Assembly: GCA_021792135.1 (NCBI GenBank) | Contig: JAJYVF010000015.1 | Span: 1 to 64,000, forward strand | Source of the DNA: Acidobacteriota bacterium | Lineage (GTDB): Bacteria; Acidobacteriota; Terriglobia; Terriglobales; Acidobacteriaceae | Direction of reading: 5' to 3' | Length of the DNA stretch: 64,000 nucleotides | In this document: positions 25,967 through 34,521 of the stretch, one piece after another | Numbering within the stretch: position 1 is the stretch's first letter | Layout: every line of letters begins with the position of its first letter | The notes under the pieces: model-generated | What the model saw: the letters and a program-made list of their open reading frames with translations, nothing else | Database searches by the model: none | Told to the model about the DNA's origin: nothing | Translations under genes and position numbers: made by a program

Positions 25967-28210
25967 GTGCTCACCCTCGAAACTCCGGTCCAGTTCGCCA
26001 AAGGCATCGGCCCCGCCATCGCCAAAACCCTTGCAGAAAAGAACATCGCCACCGTCGAGGATCTGCTGCTGCACCTGCCTTTCCGCTATGAAGACCGCCT
26101 GAATCCACGCGCCCTCAGCGAACTCAAGCCCGGCGAGATGGCCAGCGTCATCGCCGAAGTGCGCGGCGCGGCCCTGCTCCGCACCCGCAAAATGCCCATC
26201 TTTGAGATGACCGTCGGCCAGGGAATCTCTTCCATGAAGTGCCTCTGGTTCCACGGCACCTGGCTCAGGGACAAGTTCCAGCCAGGCCAGATGGTGGCCC
26301 TCTTCGGCAAGATCGAACCGTCGCGTTCGGGCCGTGGATTCAAGATGATGCAGCCGCAGATTGAAGTTCTGCCTGATGGTCACGATGACGCCATGGACCG
26401 GCTGCTGGAGGTGGGCCGCATCACCCCTGTCTACGAATCGCTGAGCGGCAGCCGCCTGGCTTCGCGCTGGATCCGGCGCATCCTCTGGAACCTCCTCGAA
26501 GAGATGAAGGGCACCATCCCGGAAACCCTGCCGGCCGCACTCCTTGCCCGGCTGAACCTTCCCGGCCGCGAACAAGCCCTGCGGACCGTACACTTCCCTG
26601 CCGCCGGCACCCCCATGTCGCAGTTGCAGGCTGCAGCCACCGCTGCCCACCGCCGCCTCATCTTCGAGGAGCTGTTCTACCTGGAACTCGGCCTCGAGGT
26701 GAAGCGCAGAAAATTCCAGGAGAAAACCGGCGTCGCCTTCACAACCAGCGAAAAGGTCCGGGCCGCATTGCGGGAGATCCTGCCCTTTCATCCGACCTCG
26801 GCGCAGAAGCGAGCGCTGGGCGAAATCGCTGCCGATATGCGCCGTCCCGTCCCCATGCGCCGTCTGCTGCAGGGCGATGTCGGCTCCGGCAAAACCATCG
26901 TTGCGCTCCAGGCCATGCTCATCGCCATTGAGAACGGCTACCAGGCCGCCCTAATGGCGCCCACCGAAATCCTCGCCACCCAGCATTACCTCTCGGCACG
27001 GCGCGTGCTGGAGAAATCGTCGCGGCACTACCGCATCACCCTGCTCACCGGCTCGCTGGAAGAAGATGTGAAGCGGCTCCGCCGGCGGCAGATCGACGAC
27101 GGCGAGACGGACCTGGTGATCGGCACCCATGCGCTGATCGAAGAGAAGGTCGAGTTCGCCAGGCTCGGGCTGGTCGTGGTTGACGAACAGCATCGCTTCG
27201 GTGTGCTGCAGCGCTTCCGGCTGATGAAGAAGGATGGCGCCGAGCCGGACGTGCTGGTGATGACGGCTACGCCCATCCCCCGCACTCTGGCGCTCTCGCT
27301 TTATGGCGATCTCGACCTCAGCGTGCTCGACGAGCTGCCCCCTGGGCGCACGCCCATCGTCACGCGCCAGGTGCCCGACCAGCGCTCGGATGAGGTGTGG
27401 GGCTTTGTCCGCGGCCAGGTCGCGCGAGGCCATCAGGCGTACGTGGTCTATCCCGTGATCGAAGGCCCGAAGGACGATCAGCCGGAGCTGGATTTTGCCG
27501 AGCCGGAGACGGAGGATGAATCCGCCAAAACGGCGAAGAAGTCCGCCAGGAAGAGCAAGACCGATTCGCTCTTCGCGAAGGTCTCCTCCCGGCTGCAGCT
27601 CAAGTCCGCCACCGACATGTACGAACGCCTGCGCGCGCAGGAACTCTCCGGCCTGCGCGTGGGACTGCTGCATGGCCGGCTCAGCGCCGATGACAAGGAA
27701 GTGGTGATGCGCCGCTTCCAGCGCGGCGAAATCGATGTGCTGATCGCAACGACCGTAATCGAAGTCGGCGTCGATGTGCCGAACGCGACGGTGATGGTCA
27801 TCGAGCACGCGGAGCGCTTCGGCCTGGCTCAGCTCCACCAGCTGCGCGGGCGCGTCGGGCGAGGCGCGGCAAAGTCGTATTGCATCCTGATGCCCGGCGG
27901 CAAGCTTTCTCCGCTTGCCGAGGAGCGGCTGGTGGCCATGGTGCGCACCCAGGATGGCTTCGAACTGGCCGAACTGGATCTCCAGTTGCGCGGCCCCGGC
28001 GAGTTCTTCGGAACCCGCCAGGCGGGCCTGCCGGATTTCCGCGTCGCGAATCTGGTGCGCGACGGGGCGCTGCTGGAGCTGGCAAAAGAGGAGTCCGCTC
28101 GCTTCGTGAAGAAGGCCGGCGAGGAAGCTACGCCCGAAGAGAAGGCGCGGGTCTGGTCGAGGCTGAAGGAAGCCTGGCAACGGCGCTACGGCCTGGCCGA
28201 GGCTGGCTGA
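25967..28210 (+). CDS. recG: ATP-dependent DNA helicase RecG
   Basis: A 747-residue helicase that regresses stalled forks and processes branched DNA. The N-terminal wedge/OB domain begins TPVQFAKGIGPAIAKTLAEK and includes LLLHLPFRYEDR. Motor 1 has Walker A GDVGSGKT (303-310) and the DEQHRFG box. Motor 2 has TTVIEVGVDVPNATVMVIE and QLHQLRGRVGRG, followed by the TRG-type C-terminal hairpin. A charged insert of about 45 residues (near 510-545, Asp/Glu then Lys-rich) separates the motor 2 strands and accounts for the extra length. It starts at a GTG with no ribosome site. Confidence 0.97.
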   Translation: MLTLETPVQFAKGIGPAIAKTLAEKNIATVEDLLLHLPFRYEDRLNPRALSELKPGEMASVIAEVRGAALLRTRKMPIFEMTVGQGISSMKCLWFHGTWLRDKFQPGQMVALFGKIEPSRSGRGFKMMQPQIEVLPDGHDDAMDRLLEVGRITPVYESLSGSRLASRWIRRILWNLLEEMKGTIPETLPAALLARLNLPGREQALRTVHFPAAGTPMSQLQAAATAAHRRLIFEELFYLELGLEVKRRKFQEKTGVAFTTSEKVRAALREILPFHPTSAQKRALGEIAADMRRPVPMRRLLQGDVGSGKTIVALQAMLIAIENGYQAALMAPTEILATQHYLSARRVLEKSSRHYRITLLTGSLEEDVKRLRRRQIDDGETDLVIGTHALIEEKVEFARLGLVVVDEQHRFGVLQRFRLMKKDGAEPDVLVMTATPIPRTLALSLYGDLDLSVLDELPPGRTPIVTRQVPDQRSDEVWGFVRGQVARGHQAYVVYPVIEGPKDDQPELDFAEPETEDESAKTAKKSARKSKTDSLFAKVSSRLQLKSATDMYERLRAQELSGLRVGLLHGRLSADDKEVVMRRFQRGEIDVLIATTVIEVGVDVPNATVMVIEHAERFGLAQLHQLRGRVGRGAAKSYCILMPGGKLSPLAEERLVAMVRTQDGFELAELDLQLRGPGEFFGTRQAGLPDFRVANLVRDGALLELAKEESARFVKKAGEEATPEEKARVWSRLKEAWQRRYGLAEAG

Positions 28211-28351
28211 AACTTCCCGCGCCGTATCCGCGTTCCACCCCGGAATCGCGCACTCGGTCGCAGACTGCATTTCGAAAGGCGCTTTGCTCCTGCGAGACGC
28301 TGCGGATTACCATTGGCGTGCCTCAGAGCCCCGAGTTCCCCAGGAGAGAAG

Positions 28352-29767
28352 ATGACGAGGATCCTTCAGCAGATTGAGCATATCGTCGTGGTCATGATGG
28401 AAAACAGGTCGTTCGACAACATGGCCGGATGGCTGTACGGGCCAGGGACGCAACCCCCTGCGCAGTTCCTTCCCGCCTCCAGTGCAAAGACCTTTAACGG
28501 CCTGCATGCGGGGCTGTTCAATCCGGCCAGCGAATTGTATTTCACAGGCCAGTCGCAGGAGACGTATCCGGTGTTTGACAAGGCAGCGGCATTCAATATG
28601 CCCGACCCGAATCCCAATGAGGATTTCCCGAACGTCAACCTGCAGCTCTACGGCCCGGAAGCGCCGAACCAGAATCCCATGTGGCCGAATCTCGGATTCG
28701 CGACGAATTACAAGCTGGTGACGGGCAGCAACATCCCCGTCGAGATCATGGAGCCCTTCAGCCCCGCTCAGGTCCCGGTGCTTTCGGCGCTGGCGCGGAA
28801 TTTCGCCGTCTCCGATGCCTGGTTCAGCTCGGTTCCCAGCGAAACCTGGCCCAACCGCTGCTTCTTCCACAGCGGAACGTCGAACGGCAACGTGGTGAAC
28901 GGCGCCTATCCCAATCCTTTCGACTGGGATGTACGCACAATCTTTAATGTGCTCGAAGACCTCGGCATCAGCTGGCGGGTGTACAGCGATACGCTGGTTG
29001 CGCCCGCCCTCACCTGGGTGATGTTCCCGCAGCTGTGGGGTTTTGGCCTCGACCGCTTCGGGCATTTCAGCGACTTCAGGGAAGCCTGCGCCAAAGGAAC
29101 ACTGCCCCGCTACACCTTCCTCGAACCCAGTTTCCTCGACAACCCTAACGACGATCACCCGCCGCATGATATTCGCGCCGGGGAGCAGTTTCTGCTCGAT
29201 ATCTGGCAGGCCGTGAGCCGCTCGCCGCTCTGGGAGAAGACCCTGCTCTTTATCACCTACGACGAGCACGGCGGTACCTACGACCACGTGATGCCGCCCT
29301 GGAATGCCGCCTGCCCGGATGCAAAGAGCAATCCCGGACAGCAGGGCTTCACCTTCAATCGCTTCGGCGTTCGCGTTCCAGCGATCGCTGTCTCGCCGTG
29401 GATTCAGGCCGGAACAGTGTTTCGCTCGCCCATCGGCGTCCCCTGCGATCACACCTCGATGCTGGCCACTCTGCGCGACTGGCTTGAGATTCCCGCCGAC
29501 AAGATGCTGTCGAGCGCCCGGATCGCGGCGGCGCCCACACTCGCTCAGGTTGTCACGCTCGAAGAGCCGAGAACCGATCTGCCCGATATCCCTCCTCCGC
29601 CGGGCCAGGCGGAACCGACGCCGACCAGTCGCCCTCTCAATGACCTGCAAAAGAGCCTGGTCTCCGCATCTGCCGTGCAGAAGGGCGCCGATCCGGTGCA
29701 GGCGGTCAATGCGCACAGGACACGGCAGGACGCGATCAACGCCTTCGCGGCATCGCGAACTCCATAG
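28352..29767 (+). CDS. phosphoesterase of the phospholipase C/acid phosphatase family
   Basis: A 471-residue member of the bacterial phosphoesterase family (phospholipase C and AcpA type). The metal-binding start IEHIVVVMMENRSFDNMAGWLYG places Glu-Asn near residue 16, and later conserved pieces are VSDAWFSSVPSETWPNR, FITYDEHGGTYDHV, FGVRVPAIAVSPW and DHTSMLATL. These enzymes cleave phospholipid headgroups or phosphomonoesters. No signal peptide or Tat motif is visible: the protein begins four residues before the fold, unlike most secreted relatives. AGGAG precedes the ATG. A 751-residue protein follows after 15 bp, and the two are probably made together. Confidence 0.88.
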   Translation: MTRILQQIEHIVVVMMENRSFDNMAGWLYGPGTQPPAQFLPASSAKTFNGLHAGLFNPASELYFTGQSQETYPVFDKAAAFNMPDPNPNEDFPNVNLQLYGPEAPNQNPMWPNLGFATNYKLVTGSNIPVEIMEPFSPAQVPVLSALARNFAVSDAWFSSVPSETWPNRCFFHSGTSNGNVVNGAYPNPFDWDVRTIFNVLEDLGISWRVYSDTLVAPALTWVMFPQLWGFGLDRFGHFSDFREACAKGTLPRYTFLEPSFLDNPNDDHPPHDIRAGEQFLLDIWQAVSRSPLWEKTLLFITYDEHGGTYDHVMPPWNAACPDAKSNPGQQGFTFNRFGVRVPAIAVSPWIQAGTVFRSPIGVPCDHTSMLATLRDWLEIPADKMLSSARIAAAPTLAQVVTLEEPRTDLPDIPPPPGQAEPTPTSRPLNDLQKSLVSASAVQKGADPVQAVNAHRTRQDAINAFAASRTP

Positions 29768-29782
29768 CGAGGAGAAGACCCC

Positions 29783-32038
29783 ATGGCGACCCTTCAGATC
29801 ACCGACCAGTTCGCGCTGAGCTACAACATCGAACTTGCGGACGACTCGCCGCTGGCAAAGGCCGGGATCTTCCACCTGGCCTGCCTGGACCATGCGCTGA
29901 AGGACGAGTTCACGAAGCCCCTTGATCAGAGGTCGCTCAGGGAATTCTCTTTCGGAGTGCAGGCCTCCACGCCCAGCGTGAGCCTCGGCTCGGCCACACT
30001 GAATGCCGGCGGCGGCGCCTGCGGCAAGGTCCGCATTATCCGGTCGTCCGAGACAAATCTGTTTCCGGGGGATAACTTTGCGCCGAAGATTCCGATTTCT
30101 TCTGACCAGTGCTGGATCGGCCTGAGCCTGGAGCTTTCCGTCAATGCCGGCGCTCAGGCCGGCGCCGATGGTTTCGGCATAAGTTTCGAAGAATCGAATA
30201 TGCTGGGGCTGACCACTTATAAGCTGATCGAAGCGCAGGCCGGCAGGTTCCCGACACTGCTCGATGGGCTCAGAACCACCCTGGATGGAATCTATCTCGC
30301 TTCCACACCCGGCGCGCTGCGTGGGCTGCCGCCGGGCACCGTCTGCGCCAATGAACTCAGCGGGGCGGTGACCTTCACCGGCTATTATCAAATTCCCGTA
30401 TCGGTGAATCCTCTGGCCTCGGCAGACCTTCCGTTCAACTACACAATTGCTGTGCAGCCGCAAGCCACGGTCGAGTTATCGGGCTCGATTGCTTTGTGCG
30501 GTGATCTCATCCTGCGCGCCTATAAGGTGGATGCGTCAACGCTCAAACTTGGGATTTATAAGAAGAAGGGTTCGACGCTCACAGCGGGCTTCACCGCAGG
30601 CGGCGGCATGGAAGTGGAACACGGGACGAGCGATCTCGCCGCGGCGCTGCTTTCGGTCGCGTTCCCGCGTGTGAACGTCGAGGCTTCCGGGATCACCGGG
30701 GGAAACGCCGAGGCGCTCAATGCCGCGCTGAAGGGCTGCATCGATCGCAGTCTGGCGATTTCAATGAATATCTCCTGCTCGGCAGCCGTCACGAACGAGG
30801 CGGCGGTCGTCTACCGCATCGCGCTCGACTCCGGAGATGCGGCACAGACCAGCGCTGCCCTGAGATCCGCGCTGGGCGGCGACTGGACTTTACTTTCGCA
30901 GCTTCCCAACGCGCAGCGGTTCCGGAACATTGTGACCGATTCGAAGGAGTACCAGCACAGCCTGGCTCTGAACCTCTTCGGCATTCTCAACGCAGCCTCG
31001 ATCGATGGGTATCTTCAGTCCTCGACAATTCTGTGCGATGAATTCGGTCACATATCCGTTATCAACCAATCGGACTCGGGCCGGATCCGCGTCGCGGCTG
31101 TTCCCTATGCCGCCGATCCCAACAAACTGCGTGCCGCTCTCGCGCAGGATTTTCTGGTAACTGCCACGTATGCGGTGGTTGGTTCAGAGGTAAGTCCGGC
31201 CTTCACGGCAAAGCAGACTTATCTCTTCTACGACGTGAAGGCCTCGCGTCAGGAAATGCGGGACCAGGTCCTGCTGGGCGAGGCGCTGGGGCTCATCGGC
31301 GCCTCCGACAAGTCATTCTGGGATACGCTGCTGGCCGCGTCATCCACCTTCCCGCACGCGTACGTCAGCGCCGCCGCGCAATACGGCAACCGCGACCTCC
31401 TGTCTCTTTTCCTTGGCTCCGGCGGCCAGCCGCGCAGCCCGATCGAACTCGAGCAGGCGGGACGAACCGCGATGATTGCCCTCCTCGATCCCGACGATCC
31501 CTATGCGCAGGAGCGCCTGGCGGTCCTCAGGGACGATGCCGCGTGGAACGCCATGGATTCCACAGGCAACGTGGGCGCGTTTCGAACCATTCCAGCGCTC
31601 CGGCAACTGCCAGCCAACGCGCTCGCCGATGTGGCTGCGGACTGGACTGCGGTCCGCTGGTGGGCGGACACCATGCTGCGGGTCGCGCCGCAGCTCGCGT
31701 CTCTGCTGGCGTTCGTAAGAACCGTTTCAGCAGACGGCTTCAGCACCAACCCGGAATTCCTGAAGCGAACGCGCCAGTTCCAGAACATACTCGGGGCGCT
31801 GGTGAAGAAGACCCATGCGGCGTTCGTGGGTGGCTGGGGGATGGCGCTGGTATCTTCGCTGGCGGGTCCGGATGCGGTGAGGTCGATGAGCATCAGCTGG
31901 GGCAGCAGCAGGAAACACTATGGATCGGGCAGCGGAAGCGATGCAGGCGCCGCAGGACAATCCGCTCCTCCGCTCGTCCTGACGGCCAGCCAGCCGGTTT
32001 CCGGCGCAATAATGGAAGAAGGTCCGGCGGTCAGCTGA
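29783..32038 (+). CDS. unrecognised 751-residue protein paired with the phosphoesterase
   Basis: I do not recognise this protein. It has no signal peptide and no transmembrane helix. Residues about 50-270 are rich in beta-prone segments (FSFGVQAS, VTFTGYYQIPVSV, YTIAVQPQATVELSGSIALCGDLIL). Residues about 275-500 mix helices and strands, and the C-terminal third is mostly helical with LRQLPANALADVAADWTAVRWWADTM. The tail from about 705 is Gly/Ser/Ala-rich and looks disordered. GAGGAGA precedes the ATG, and the gene starts 15 bp after a phospholipase-C-like gene. Composition and codon use look like the neighbours. It could be a carrier, a regulator or a partner protein of the phosphoesterase; none of these is shown. 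Confidence 0.8.
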   Translation: MATLQITDQFALSYNIELADDSPLAKAGIFHLACLDHALKDEFTKPLDQRSLREFSFGVQASTPSVSLGSATLNAGGGACGKVRIIRSSETNLFPGDNFAPKIPISSDQCWIGLSLELSVNAGAQAGADGFGISFEESNMLGLTTYKLIEAQAGRFPTLLDGLRTTLDGIYLASTPGALRGLPPGTVCANELSGAVTFTGYYQIPVSVNPLASADLPFNYTIAVQPQATVELSGSIALCGDLILRAYKVDASTLKLGIYKKKGSTLTAGFTAGGGMEVEHGTSDLAAALLSVAFPRVNVEASGITGGNAEALNAALKGCIDRSLAISMNISCSAAVTNEAAVVYRIALDSGDAAQTSAALRSALGGDWTLLSQLPNAQRFRNIVTDSKEYQHSLALNLFGILNAASIDGYLQSSTILCDEFGHISVINQSDSGRIRVAAVPYAADPNKLRAALAQDFLVTATYAVVGSEVSPAFTAKQTYLFYDVKASRQEMRDQVLLGEALGLIGASDKSFWDTLLAASSTFPHAYVSAAAQYGNRDLLSLFLGSGGQPRSPIELEQAGRTAMIALLDPDDPYAQERLAVLRDDAAWNAMDSTGNVGAFRTIPALRQLPANALADVAADWTAVRWWADTMLRVAPQLASLLAFVRTVSADGFSTNPEFLKRTRQFQNILGALVKKTHAAFVGGWGMALVSSLAGPDAVRSMSISWGSSRKHYGSGSGSDAGAAGQSAPPLVLTASQPVSGAIMEEGPAVS

Positions 32039-32073
32039 CAATCGCACGGACGGCAGATCTCCGAGGGTCAACA

Positions 32074-34521
32074 ATGTCGATTTCGAGAAGAGCCTTCCTG
32101 AGAAGCTCAGCGTGCGCGGGGCTGGGCATGATTGGCGTGGAGCGAGCCACTCCCGCGGCGCTCCTGGCAGCGCTCGAAGATCTGCAGCTGGGCCCGTATC
32201 TCAGCGGGATGCGCATGGCGGCGACGCCGGCCACCGACTACCGCGCTTACCGTTCCAGGACGGTTACCGATCCCGGCCTTCCCACCTGGGTGCAGATCGA
32301 TCTGGGCCGGACGCAGGTCATTGACACTGTCCTGCTCTACCCCGCCGCGGAGCGCATGTATCCGGGACGCGATCAGTATTACGGCGGCGAGGGTTTTCCT
32401 CTGCGCTTCAGAATCGAAGCTTCCGACGACGCTGACTTCGGCCATCCAGAGAAGATCGCGGACTTCACGGCCGCCGATTTTCCCGACCCTGAAGACCACA
32501 TCACGCGCTACCCGGCGTCCTACATCAGCGCCCGATACATCCGGCTGACGGCGACACGGCTGCGCCCGGTCAGGCAGGGAGCGCCCGGCGGTCACCTGCT
32601 GGAGGACAGCCCGAATTTCAGCCTGACCATCGCAAAGATCGGCGTTCTCTCCAACGGAGAGGATATTGCGCAGGGCTGCGCCGCCACAGCGGATCTCGCC
32701 CACGGCAACCCCGGTGACCTCGGACAGCTGACTCGCCCCGCACGCCAGGACGGAGAAGGCATCCACCGCGACCTGCCCCACAACGTGACCGCGCCGGAAA
32801 CCTGGCATCCGGTGCAATACAGGGCGGAAGCCCCGAGGACCGGCGTCACGCTGGGCGACGGCCTGTTCCGCACCGCGATGCAGAACAACATCCGCTATCT
32901 TCTCGATTCCTATACGACCGCCGATCTGCTGCGGCAGTTCTACGAGCGCACCGGGAAAATCCGCAACTATAAGGCCACTGGTACAGCCGTGTTCTGGGAG
33001 GAAGATCTGGCCGGCTCCAACGCCGGCCGCTTCCTGATGGGCGCAGGCAACACGCTGCGCTGGATTGACGATGCGGAACTGCACAGGAAGATGACCGCAG
33101 TGATGGACGGCATCGCCGCATGCCGGCAGTCGAACGGCTACATCATGGCCTATCCCGAAGATACGATCTTCTACTCCGAGCGCGGAGCTTACACCCGCGC
33201 CTGGCTCACGCACGGAATCCTGGAAGCGGCCTACGCCGGGGATACCCGCGGATTCGAGCTGCTGCGCGGCTACTATGACTGGTTCAATCGCCAGTCGCAG
33301 TATCTGCCCGAGTTACTGCGCGGCGCGGTGCAGGGCGGCCAGGGCATGATCGCCAATACGCGCGTCAGCCTCAGCCCCGTGGGTAAACCCGCCGATGTAC
33401 AGGTTATTCAGAGATACTTCCAGGAAGACGCCTGGCTCAACGGACTGGCTCGGCGCGATCTTCTCCAGGTCTGGCAATATCCCTACGACCGTCCCCATTG
33501 CTATCTGCTCACCGATCTTGAAGCCTATCTCGATCTCTACCGGGCCACCGGAGAGCGGAAGTATTACGAGGCAGTCATGGGCGCATGGGAGATGTACCGC
33601 GAGCACTGGGAGCAGCCGGGCGGGAGTATCTCGATCATCGAGTTCCGCCGCGACCCGCCCGGCAGCAATTACCTGCACGAGAAACTCGGCGAACTCTGCG
33701 GAAGCAGCTTCTGGGTCTTTCTCAGCCAGCGCTTCCAGCTGCTGCATCCCGACGATGAACGCTTTGCGGCGGAGATCGAGAAATCGATCTATAACGTGGG
33801 GCTGGCCAACCAGGACGGCAGTTACGGCCTTCGTTATCACACCGTCCTTGACGGGCAGAAGGAGAAGGGCACACGATACAACACCTGCTGCGAAGGCCAG
33901 GGAACAAGGCTGATCGGCTCACTGCCCGAACATATCTACTCGATCGCGGACGACGGGCTGTATCTGCACCTCTACGAGCCCTCGTCCATCGAGTGGAAGC
34001 ACAGTGGCGCTCCTGTCCGGCTCTCGATGCAGACGCGCTTCCCCTTTTCGCCGGAGGTCGCCGCCACAATGCACGCCGCCGAACCTCTGCGGATGAACCT
34101 GCGCGTCCGCACCCCGTCCTGGGCCACGAAAGCTATGCCGATTGCGGTCAACGGCAGTGTCGTCGCGACCGGTCAGCCGGGAAGCTATGCCACCATCGAC
34201 CGCACCTGGTCTGACGGAGACAAAGTCCAATTCACTCTCCCCATCGCGTTTCGTGCCACCCGCTACACCGGGGCCGACCAGATTCCCGGCCAGACCCGCT
34301 TCTCTTTGGAATATGGGCCGCTTCTCTATGCCGCCGTCGGGGCGGACCACGCCGAACTGCCGCCCGGCTTCGATCCTGAAACCGTGAACCAGCAGATGGA
34401 GCCGGTGGCGGGTTCCCCCCTGCACTATCGCCTTCGCGGCCTCGATGCCATCACCTTTCTGCCCTACTGGCAGGTTTCCACCGAGACCTTTACCTGCTTC
34501 CCGGCGGTCAGGAGCGTTTGA
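32074..34521 (+). CDS. Tat-exported GH127-like beta-L-arabinofuranosidase with discoidin-like domain
   Basis: An 815-residue protein. A twin-arginine leader (SRRAFLRSSACAGLGM) is followed by an F5/8 type C (discoidin-like) domain at about 40-190, with PTWVQIDLGRTQVIDTVLLYP and YISARYIRLTATRL. Then comes an (alpha/alpha)6 catalytic module of the DUF1680/GH127 type: RNYKATGTAVFWEEDLAG, GYYDWFNRQ, and the Cys-rich YNTCCEGQGTRLIGSLPE. Family knowledge makes a cysteine of this pair (Cys605/Cys606), held by zinc, the nucleophile, with a Glu as acid/base. A beta-sandwich completes the fold. The gene starts 35 bp after the unrecognised protein with GAGGG upstream, so it may be the third member of that operon. 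Confidence 0.85.
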   Translation: MSISRRAFLRSSACAGLGMIGVERATPAALLAALEDLQLGPYLSGMRMAATPATDYRAYRSRTVTDPGLPTWVQIDLGRTQVIDTVLLYPAAERMYPGRDQYYGGEGFPLRFRIEASDDADFGHPEKIADFTAADFPDPEDHITRYPASYISARYIRLTATRLRPVRQGAPGGHLLEDSPNFSLTIAKIGVLSNGEDIAQGCAATADLAHGNPGDLGQLTRPARQDGEGIHRDLPHNVTAPETWHPVQYRAEAPRTGVTLGDGLFRTAMQNNIRYLLDSYTTADLLRQFYERTGKIRNYKATGTAVFWEEDLAGSNAGRFLMGAGNTLRWIDDAELHRKMTAVMDGIAACRQSNGYIMAYPEDTIFYSERGAYTRAWLTHGILEAAYAGDTRGFELLRGYYDWFNRQSQYLPELLRGAVQGGQGMIANTRVSLSPVGKPADVQVIQRYFQEDAWLNGLARRDLLQVWQYPYDRPHCYLLTDLEAYLDLYRATGERKYYEAVMGAWEMYREHWEQPGGSISIIEFRRDPPGSNYLHEKLGELCGSSFWVFLSQRFQLLHPDDERFAAEIEKSIYNVGLANQDGSYGLRYHTVLDGQKEKGTRYNTCCEGQGTRLIGSLPEHIYSIADDGLYLHLYEPSSIEWKHSGAPVRLSMQTRFPFSPEVAATMHAAEPLRMNLRVRTPSWATKAMPIAVNGSVVATGQPGSYATIDRTWSDGDKVQFTLPIAFRATRYTGADQIPGQTRFSLEYGPLLYAAVGADHAELPPGFDPETVNQQMEPVAGSPLHYRLRGLDAITFLPYWQVSTETFTCFPAVRSV

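Follow-up and report, generated by a model that had tools for sequence, protein, structure and literature searches.

The window analysed here, a stretch of 64,000 nucleotides of acidobacterial DNA (contig JAJYVF010000015.1; G000:C2:1-64000) from a genome of 5.1 Mb, carries a gene for a phospholipase C that is followed after 15 bp by a gene for a 751-residue protein. In the most probable reading (about 0.68), these are independent leaderless proteins encoded in one local operon, namely a phospholipase of the NPC4 type acting inside the cell and a superfamily member working without the phospholipase. The reading builds on the genes and their spacing, on catalytic residues placed by alignment, on the superfamily itself and on a lack of conserved pairing in the sampled genomes. 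Open reading frame (ORF) calls bear out the two ORFs that the initial annotation had reported on the forward strand, 15 bp apart, which are arranged as follows together with predicted ribosome-binding-site-like sequences read directly from the letters.

28340..28351, forward strand: predicted ribosome-binding-site-like sequence with AGGAG, 5' of the phospholipase gene
28352..29767, forward strand: leaderless NPC-type phospholipase C (PF04185), 471 residues
29768..29782, forward strand: 15-bp spacer with a predicted GAGGAG-type ribosome-binding-site-like sequence
29783..32038, forward strand: 751-residue protein of an undescribed leaderless superfamily, with no library family and with homologues in Acidobacteriota

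Lack of conserved pairing

The superfamily of the 751-residue protein consists of diverged, leaderless proteins, mostly of 715-780 residues, collected at 23 loci, all from Acidobacteriota, the one phylum that the profile searches covered. Comparison of the picked ORFs at 22 of these loci revealed an adjacent PF04185 gene at one, the window itself; in G036 such a gene lies ~6.7 kb upstream, and the remaining 20 have none. At the 23rd locus (G438), outside that comparison, no phospholipase was seen by eye in the gene listing. Genes in these listings were picked by a simple guanine-plus-cytosine (GC)-position score, and some are wrong or missed, such as the SLATT gene of L019, which was found in the full ORF list. 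In the reverse direction, comparison of ORFs of at least 80 residues with the superfamily profile found a superfamily ORF at none of 16 phospholipase loci, 14 of them uncut and two (G226 and G707:C129) losing the downstream side at a contig end. The profile comparison took in every one of these loci; for L087 and L088 the neighbouring genes were viewed in part.

The nearest relatives point the same way. G688 encodes a 71%-identical phospholipase with no superfamily gene nearby, its superfamily gene lying on another contig, and the 40%-identical superfamily gene of G687 stands between coaE and an NAD(P) transhydrogenase gene (as read), with no phospholipase near. The phospholipase gene, the 751-residue gene and the GH127 gene that follows them in the window are all missing from the flank of recG, the gene upstream, in nine genus relatives (11 have recG; G198 and G703 were left out). 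Among the 61 phospholipase-bearing genomes, 54 had no superfamily match in the order, phylum and family lists, the presence of each genome in those samples being unconfirmed; G207 has a superfamily gene but no phospholipase match at E<=1e-40. Because the two-way locus comparison, the nearest relatives and the recG flanks of the genus all lack the pair, the pairing is judged from sequence to be local and not conserved, being confined to the window genome as far as sampled. The initial annotation had proposed an enzyme and its dedicated partner, and had named genomes in which the two genes are never adjacent as counter-evidence. This is largely what emerged when co-occurrence was checked in both directions, and the proposal is judged unsupported. 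Its alternative wording, an intracellular pair, survives in part: an intracellular location is plausible for both proteins, but a dedicated partnership is unsupported.

A leaderless phospholipase probably of the NPC4 type

The phospholipase matches PF04185 over profile positions 1-353 of 356 (E 5.5e-68), far above the cut-off, and its best sequence match in the PDB is Arabidopsis NPC4 (8hav, E 9.6e-60), with residues 8-445 aligned. The alignment stops at NPC4 residue 444, just within the C-terminal domain, which spans residues 430-496; the paper that gives these bounds also lists E23, N24, H79, T158, H264, D299 and E300 as required for NPC4 activity (PMC9837106). Six of these seven are kept in the printed alignment, where E17, N18, T165, H269, D304 and E305 correspond to E23, N24, T158, H264, D299 and E300, and all six are invariant among the phospholipase relatives compared (one truncated row excluded). 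By sequence, the enzyme is a new addition to an already known family, with predicted activity. Relatives at E<=1e-40 occur in 61 of 300 family genomes.

Leaders were sought by Kyte-Doolittle hydrophobicity with a 19-residue mean. The phospholipase has no N-terminal hydrophobic leader, its top mean being 0.49 in the first 40 positions and 1.30 anywhere. Because the ENRSFD-type motif lies at most 26 residues from the first possible start in 12 of 17 phospholipase relatives, and later start codons occur near the motif in the other five, the leaderless state appears from these sequences to be the norm for this subfamily. The missing export leader that the initial annotation had singled out is thus present as described, but is usual in the subfamily of the enzyme. 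The genome encodes five further long PF04185 ORFs, and these have leader-like starts by eye; a short match on contig C50 was left out.

A separate arrangement was observed at four of the 17 phospholipase-relative loci (L093:630-3484, L094:5308-8198, L095:6521-9663 and L019:672-3886), where a larger protein, homologous from locus to locus, is encoded after the leaderless enzyme. This protein has 454-479 residues at three loci and lies within a 664-residue ORF in L019, with 24-51% identity among the four; its start is leader-like by eye in L093-L095, and a small related ORF intervenes at two loci. A Pfam comparison gave no match; one of the proteins has a weak Omp85-type match (E 0.0016), its 18 bits lying far below the cut-off of 200. 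The arrangement looks like a real conserved enzyme-partner layout in another phospholipase branch.

An undescribed superfamily

Full-length homologues, 22-40% identical, and a codon usage in line with that of the window show the 751-residue ORF to be a genuine gene. Profile searches covered samples of one phylum, Acidobacteriota, and all genome counts include that of the window. Matches were obtained in 7 of 298 genomes at the order level, one of them false (G040, L021, dropped because its sequence reads as DnaK), in 7 of 396 at the phylum level (one dropped), in 14 of 398 at the family level (two dropped), and in two further orders (2 of 18 genomes and 1 of 10), while a second-subfamily profile matched 11 of the 298 order genomes. 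Besides G040, the genomes dropped are G012 and G276, their matches spanning 49 profile positions and the G012 stretch having no ORF match. Two peptide patterns drawn from four members, scanned once against genome contigs of 84,980 species, returned two relatives, both acidobacterial; the patterns are narrow and the result carries little weight for other phyla. Searches of viral contigs, phages and plasmids found no superfamily member.

The six-member profile A2, which includes the window protein, matches it over positions 1-718 of 723, and the closest relative outside the window (G687) shares 40% identity, aligned over its length. Profile comparison links a second subfamily, A6 (99.2% probability, 383 columns), as well as the outliers G352 (95.3%), G125 (94.0%) and G438 (95.9%), of which G352 and G438 are weak members kept on this comparison. 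The superfamily gene of G702 is broken into two ORFs. The window protein has no N-terminal hydrophobic leader (top mean 0.66 in the first 40 positions, 1.16 anywhere), and neither a leader nor a strong transmembrane segment was detected in the 21 of 23 superfamily proteins scanned (two left out; top 19-residue mean 1.81). The nine-member alignment has invariant columns at D8, L93, D97, G194, R245, Y259, D284, A341, G366, G400, G422, L449, T460, Y463, F543, W588, W627 and M631, which to our eye seem unlike a catalytic set.

Library searches and the hydrophobicity scan agree with the initial annotation that the second protein is of an unrecognised family and lacks a signal. The profile search that it recommended found no known family, with nothing in Pfam or NCBIfam, one insignificant match in PHROGs (E 0.17) and chance-level matches in the PDB (best E 1.7). 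PADLOC gave no match for the four members tested, and a PDB search with the nine-member profile found nothing. Searched singly against Pfam, the nine members produced eight scattered weak families (best E 0.0035, Peptidase_M35 in one member), taken as chance. Self-alignment for internal repeats gave nothing significant. On this evidence, the protein is assigned by sequence to a superfamily undescribed in the reference libraries searched.

The structure-based search that had also been recommended was run on low-confidence models. AlphaFold2 returned a mean predicted local distance difference test score (pLDDT) of 42.5 for the full protein with three sequences, and a pLDDT of 51.7 with a predicted TM-score of 0.48 for the N-terminal 385 residues, the poor prediction being due to too few usable relatives in the alignment. 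Foldseek with the N-terminal model found no match at E<=0.001 in the PDB or BFVD, and matches to pore-formers were set aside because their TM-scores were near 0.1, none reaching that E threshold.

Neighbourhoods and alternative explanations

By eye, the neighbours are ordinary for most superfamily members. An envelope-hydrolase or conflict-type neighbour occurs at six of the 23 superfamily loci.

Window: phospholipase C (PF04185)
G087: 979-residue ORF (L020:10714-13653) with a Tle1-like domain, directly upstream on the same strand, 202 bp away
G125: phage-lysozyme ORF (L118:4223-4771) directly after the superfamily stop codon, without an evident leader
G452: two mutually related C25-like protease genes, one adjacent, the other one gene further away (20.7 and 16.4 against a Pfam cut-off of 23)
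G352: CHAT/DUF7379 protein and alpha/beta hydrolase, each encoded on the opposite strand
G036: DUF4231/SLATT protein, with a TIR gene ~2 kb away, further upstream

The G087 ORF combines a Tle1-like catalytic domain (residues 3-255) with a complete di-heme cytochrome c peroxidase module at residues 446-978; no leader was seen in it by eye, and cytochromes c mature outside the cytoplasm. This neighbour pattern was noticed after looking and is only suggestive, a lead and not a result. None of the non-phospholipase neighbour types occurred at 27 background loci; this comparison was not used as a test, because its queries were taken from superfamily loci and it is therefore circular.

Under the preferred reading of two independent proteins, the phospholipase would stay in the cell and cleave head groups off the cell's own membrane phospholipids from the cytoplasmic side, probably by way of a phospho-threonine intermediate formed at T165. 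The 751-residue protein would be a soluble accessory factor with no obvious catalytic motif that works without the phospholipase; the low-confidence models suggest that beta-structure may prevail in its first half and helices towards its end, and our best guess at its role is a factor aimed at envelopes or membranes during conflict with phages or competitors. Several observations weigh against this reading. The short gap of 15 bp points to co-expression of the genes, and an operon of recent origin may be functional all the same; the position of the catalytic H79 of NPC4 is occupied by E90 in the window enzyme. Conflict-type neighbours occur at only six loci in a pattern spotted post hoc, with C25 matches below the Pfam cut-off, and the other 17 have no neighbour so classed (by eye, neighbours partly scanned). 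In addition, the superfamily profile searches were limited to acidobacterial samples, and the quality of the structure models is too low for them to inform on function.

A dedicated arrangement, in which the 751-residue protein serves as chaperone, inhibitor or carrier of the phospholipase, would account for the short gap on the same strand and for the leaderless state of both proteins, and it has a parallel in G087, where a lipase gene of the Tle1-like type likewise lies directly upstream of the superfamily gene; it is nevertheless very unlikely given that the genes are adjacent at 1 of 22 superfamily loci and at none of 16 phospholipase loci, with the nearest relatives of each gene standing apart from the other. 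Both proteins might instead be cargo of a contractile injection system directed at other bacteria, whether a type VI secretion system (T6SS) or a phage-tail-like particle, the phospholipase damaging target membranes and the 751-residue protein acting as second effector, carrier or immunity factor. Tle1-like lipases, phage lysozymes and phospholipases C are enzyme types known as injected effectors, and all three are found among the superfamily neighbours. A gene for the T6SS sheath protein VipB is present in the window genome on another contig (G000:C42:62049-62948), and VipB is matched in 7 of 11 superfamily-bearing genomes tested. The other four have no VipB match, however, three of them (G125, G036 and G687) also lacking Phage_sheath_1; moreover, no injection gene was recognised by eye in the ORF lists near the window genes, and the fusion of the Tle1-like protein to a peroxidase module is unlike a simple effector, so that injection is held to be quite improbable. 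The statement of the initial annotation that no secretion gene is nearby holds for the neighbourhood as judged by eye, but the genome as a whole does contain the sheath gene.

The superfamily could also be a component of a cell-suicide or immunity module, a target or pore-type effector freed by neighbouring proteases. The C25-like genes of G452, the CHAT/DUF7379 protein of G352 and the SLATT and TIR genes of G036 are in keeping with this, caspase-like peptidases, TIR and SLATT being described as conflict-system parts in sections of a published account (PMC7159879). Such a role is considered unlikely, as protease-type neighbours occur at 2 of 23 loci, the C25 scores fall below the cut-off, PADLOC matched none of the four members tested and the pore-former matches in Foldseek are meaningless. 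A broader proposal, regarded as improbable, is that the superfamily consists of soluble leaderless proteins plugged into varied conflict modules beside envelope- or host-attacking enzymes (phospholipase C, Tle1-like lipase, lysozyme and caspase-like proteases), in which they would serve as a shared carrier, a trigger or a partner that acts on membranes.

Locus layout and genomic context

The two genes are flanked by the following genes.

25967..28210, forward strand: recG, with RecG wedge and helicase domains, 141 bp ahead of the phospholipase start
32074..34521, forward strand: GH127 beta-L-arabinofuranosidase-like gene (PF07944 E 3.7e-24, PF20736 E 3.1e-21)

The GH127 gene, with a Tat-like N-terminus by eye, starts 35 bp past the 751-residue ORF and is therefore probably in the same operon, so that the phospholipase, the 751-residue protein and GH127 look like a local operon in which the 751-residue ORF is nearly as near GH127 (35 bp) as the phospholipase (15 bp). 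GC content stays even here, at 0.61-0.64 from 28 to 33 kb, and codon usage fits the window (r 0.94 for the phospholipase, 0.91 for the 751-residue ORF), giving no sign of a very recent arrival of either gene. Scans for Rfam families, tRNAs, promoters, terminators and repeats gave nothing useful. The initial annotation had passed over both the GH127 gene and the T6SS sheath gene.

All 12 genus genomes, that of the window among them, have recG. The region downstream of it (window 28210-34521; L133-L141) differs among nine genus relatives, as if it were a variable site; L133, L136 and L138 seem by eye to have one small gene in common there. In G207, of the same genus, a superfamily gene of 23-25% identity (L016:4000-9570) lies ~2.7 kb from an inorganic pyrophosphatase gene (by eye), the counterpart of which is ~5 kb from the superfamily member of the window, reflecting either a shared site or chance.

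Relation to known systems

With the adjacency seen in a single genome, which makes no system, the finding of a dedicated pair dissolves. One thing that takes its place is a diverged superfamily of large leaderless proteins missing from the reference libraries searched, for which no known family is alike in Pfam, NCBIfam, PHROGs, PADLOC or the PDB, and which would represent a new conflict component if its occasional hydrolase and protease neighbours reflect function. The T6SS Tle effectors resemble the predicted window enzyme in being leaderless membrane-lipid hydrolases, and a Tle1-like gene does stand upstream of the G087 member; the window enzyme, however, belongs to PF04185 and not to PF09994, and no injection gene was recognised alongside it. 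The phosphocholine-specific phospholipase C equivalog TIGR03396 belongs to the same superfamily as the window enzyme and matches it partially (E 4.8e-34), but this identity was rejected, since the score of 117.8 bits is far below the curated cut-off of 580.25. Plant NPC4 offers the closest comparison: the whole phosphoesterase domain aligns up to the start of the C-terminal domain and six of seven catalytic residues are kept, whereas H79 is replaced by E90, most of the NPC4 C-terminal domain lies past the alignment and the activity of the window enzyme is predicted. The other thing left is the presence, in Acidobacteria, of leaderless proteins related to the plant NPC phospholipases and open to direct assay.

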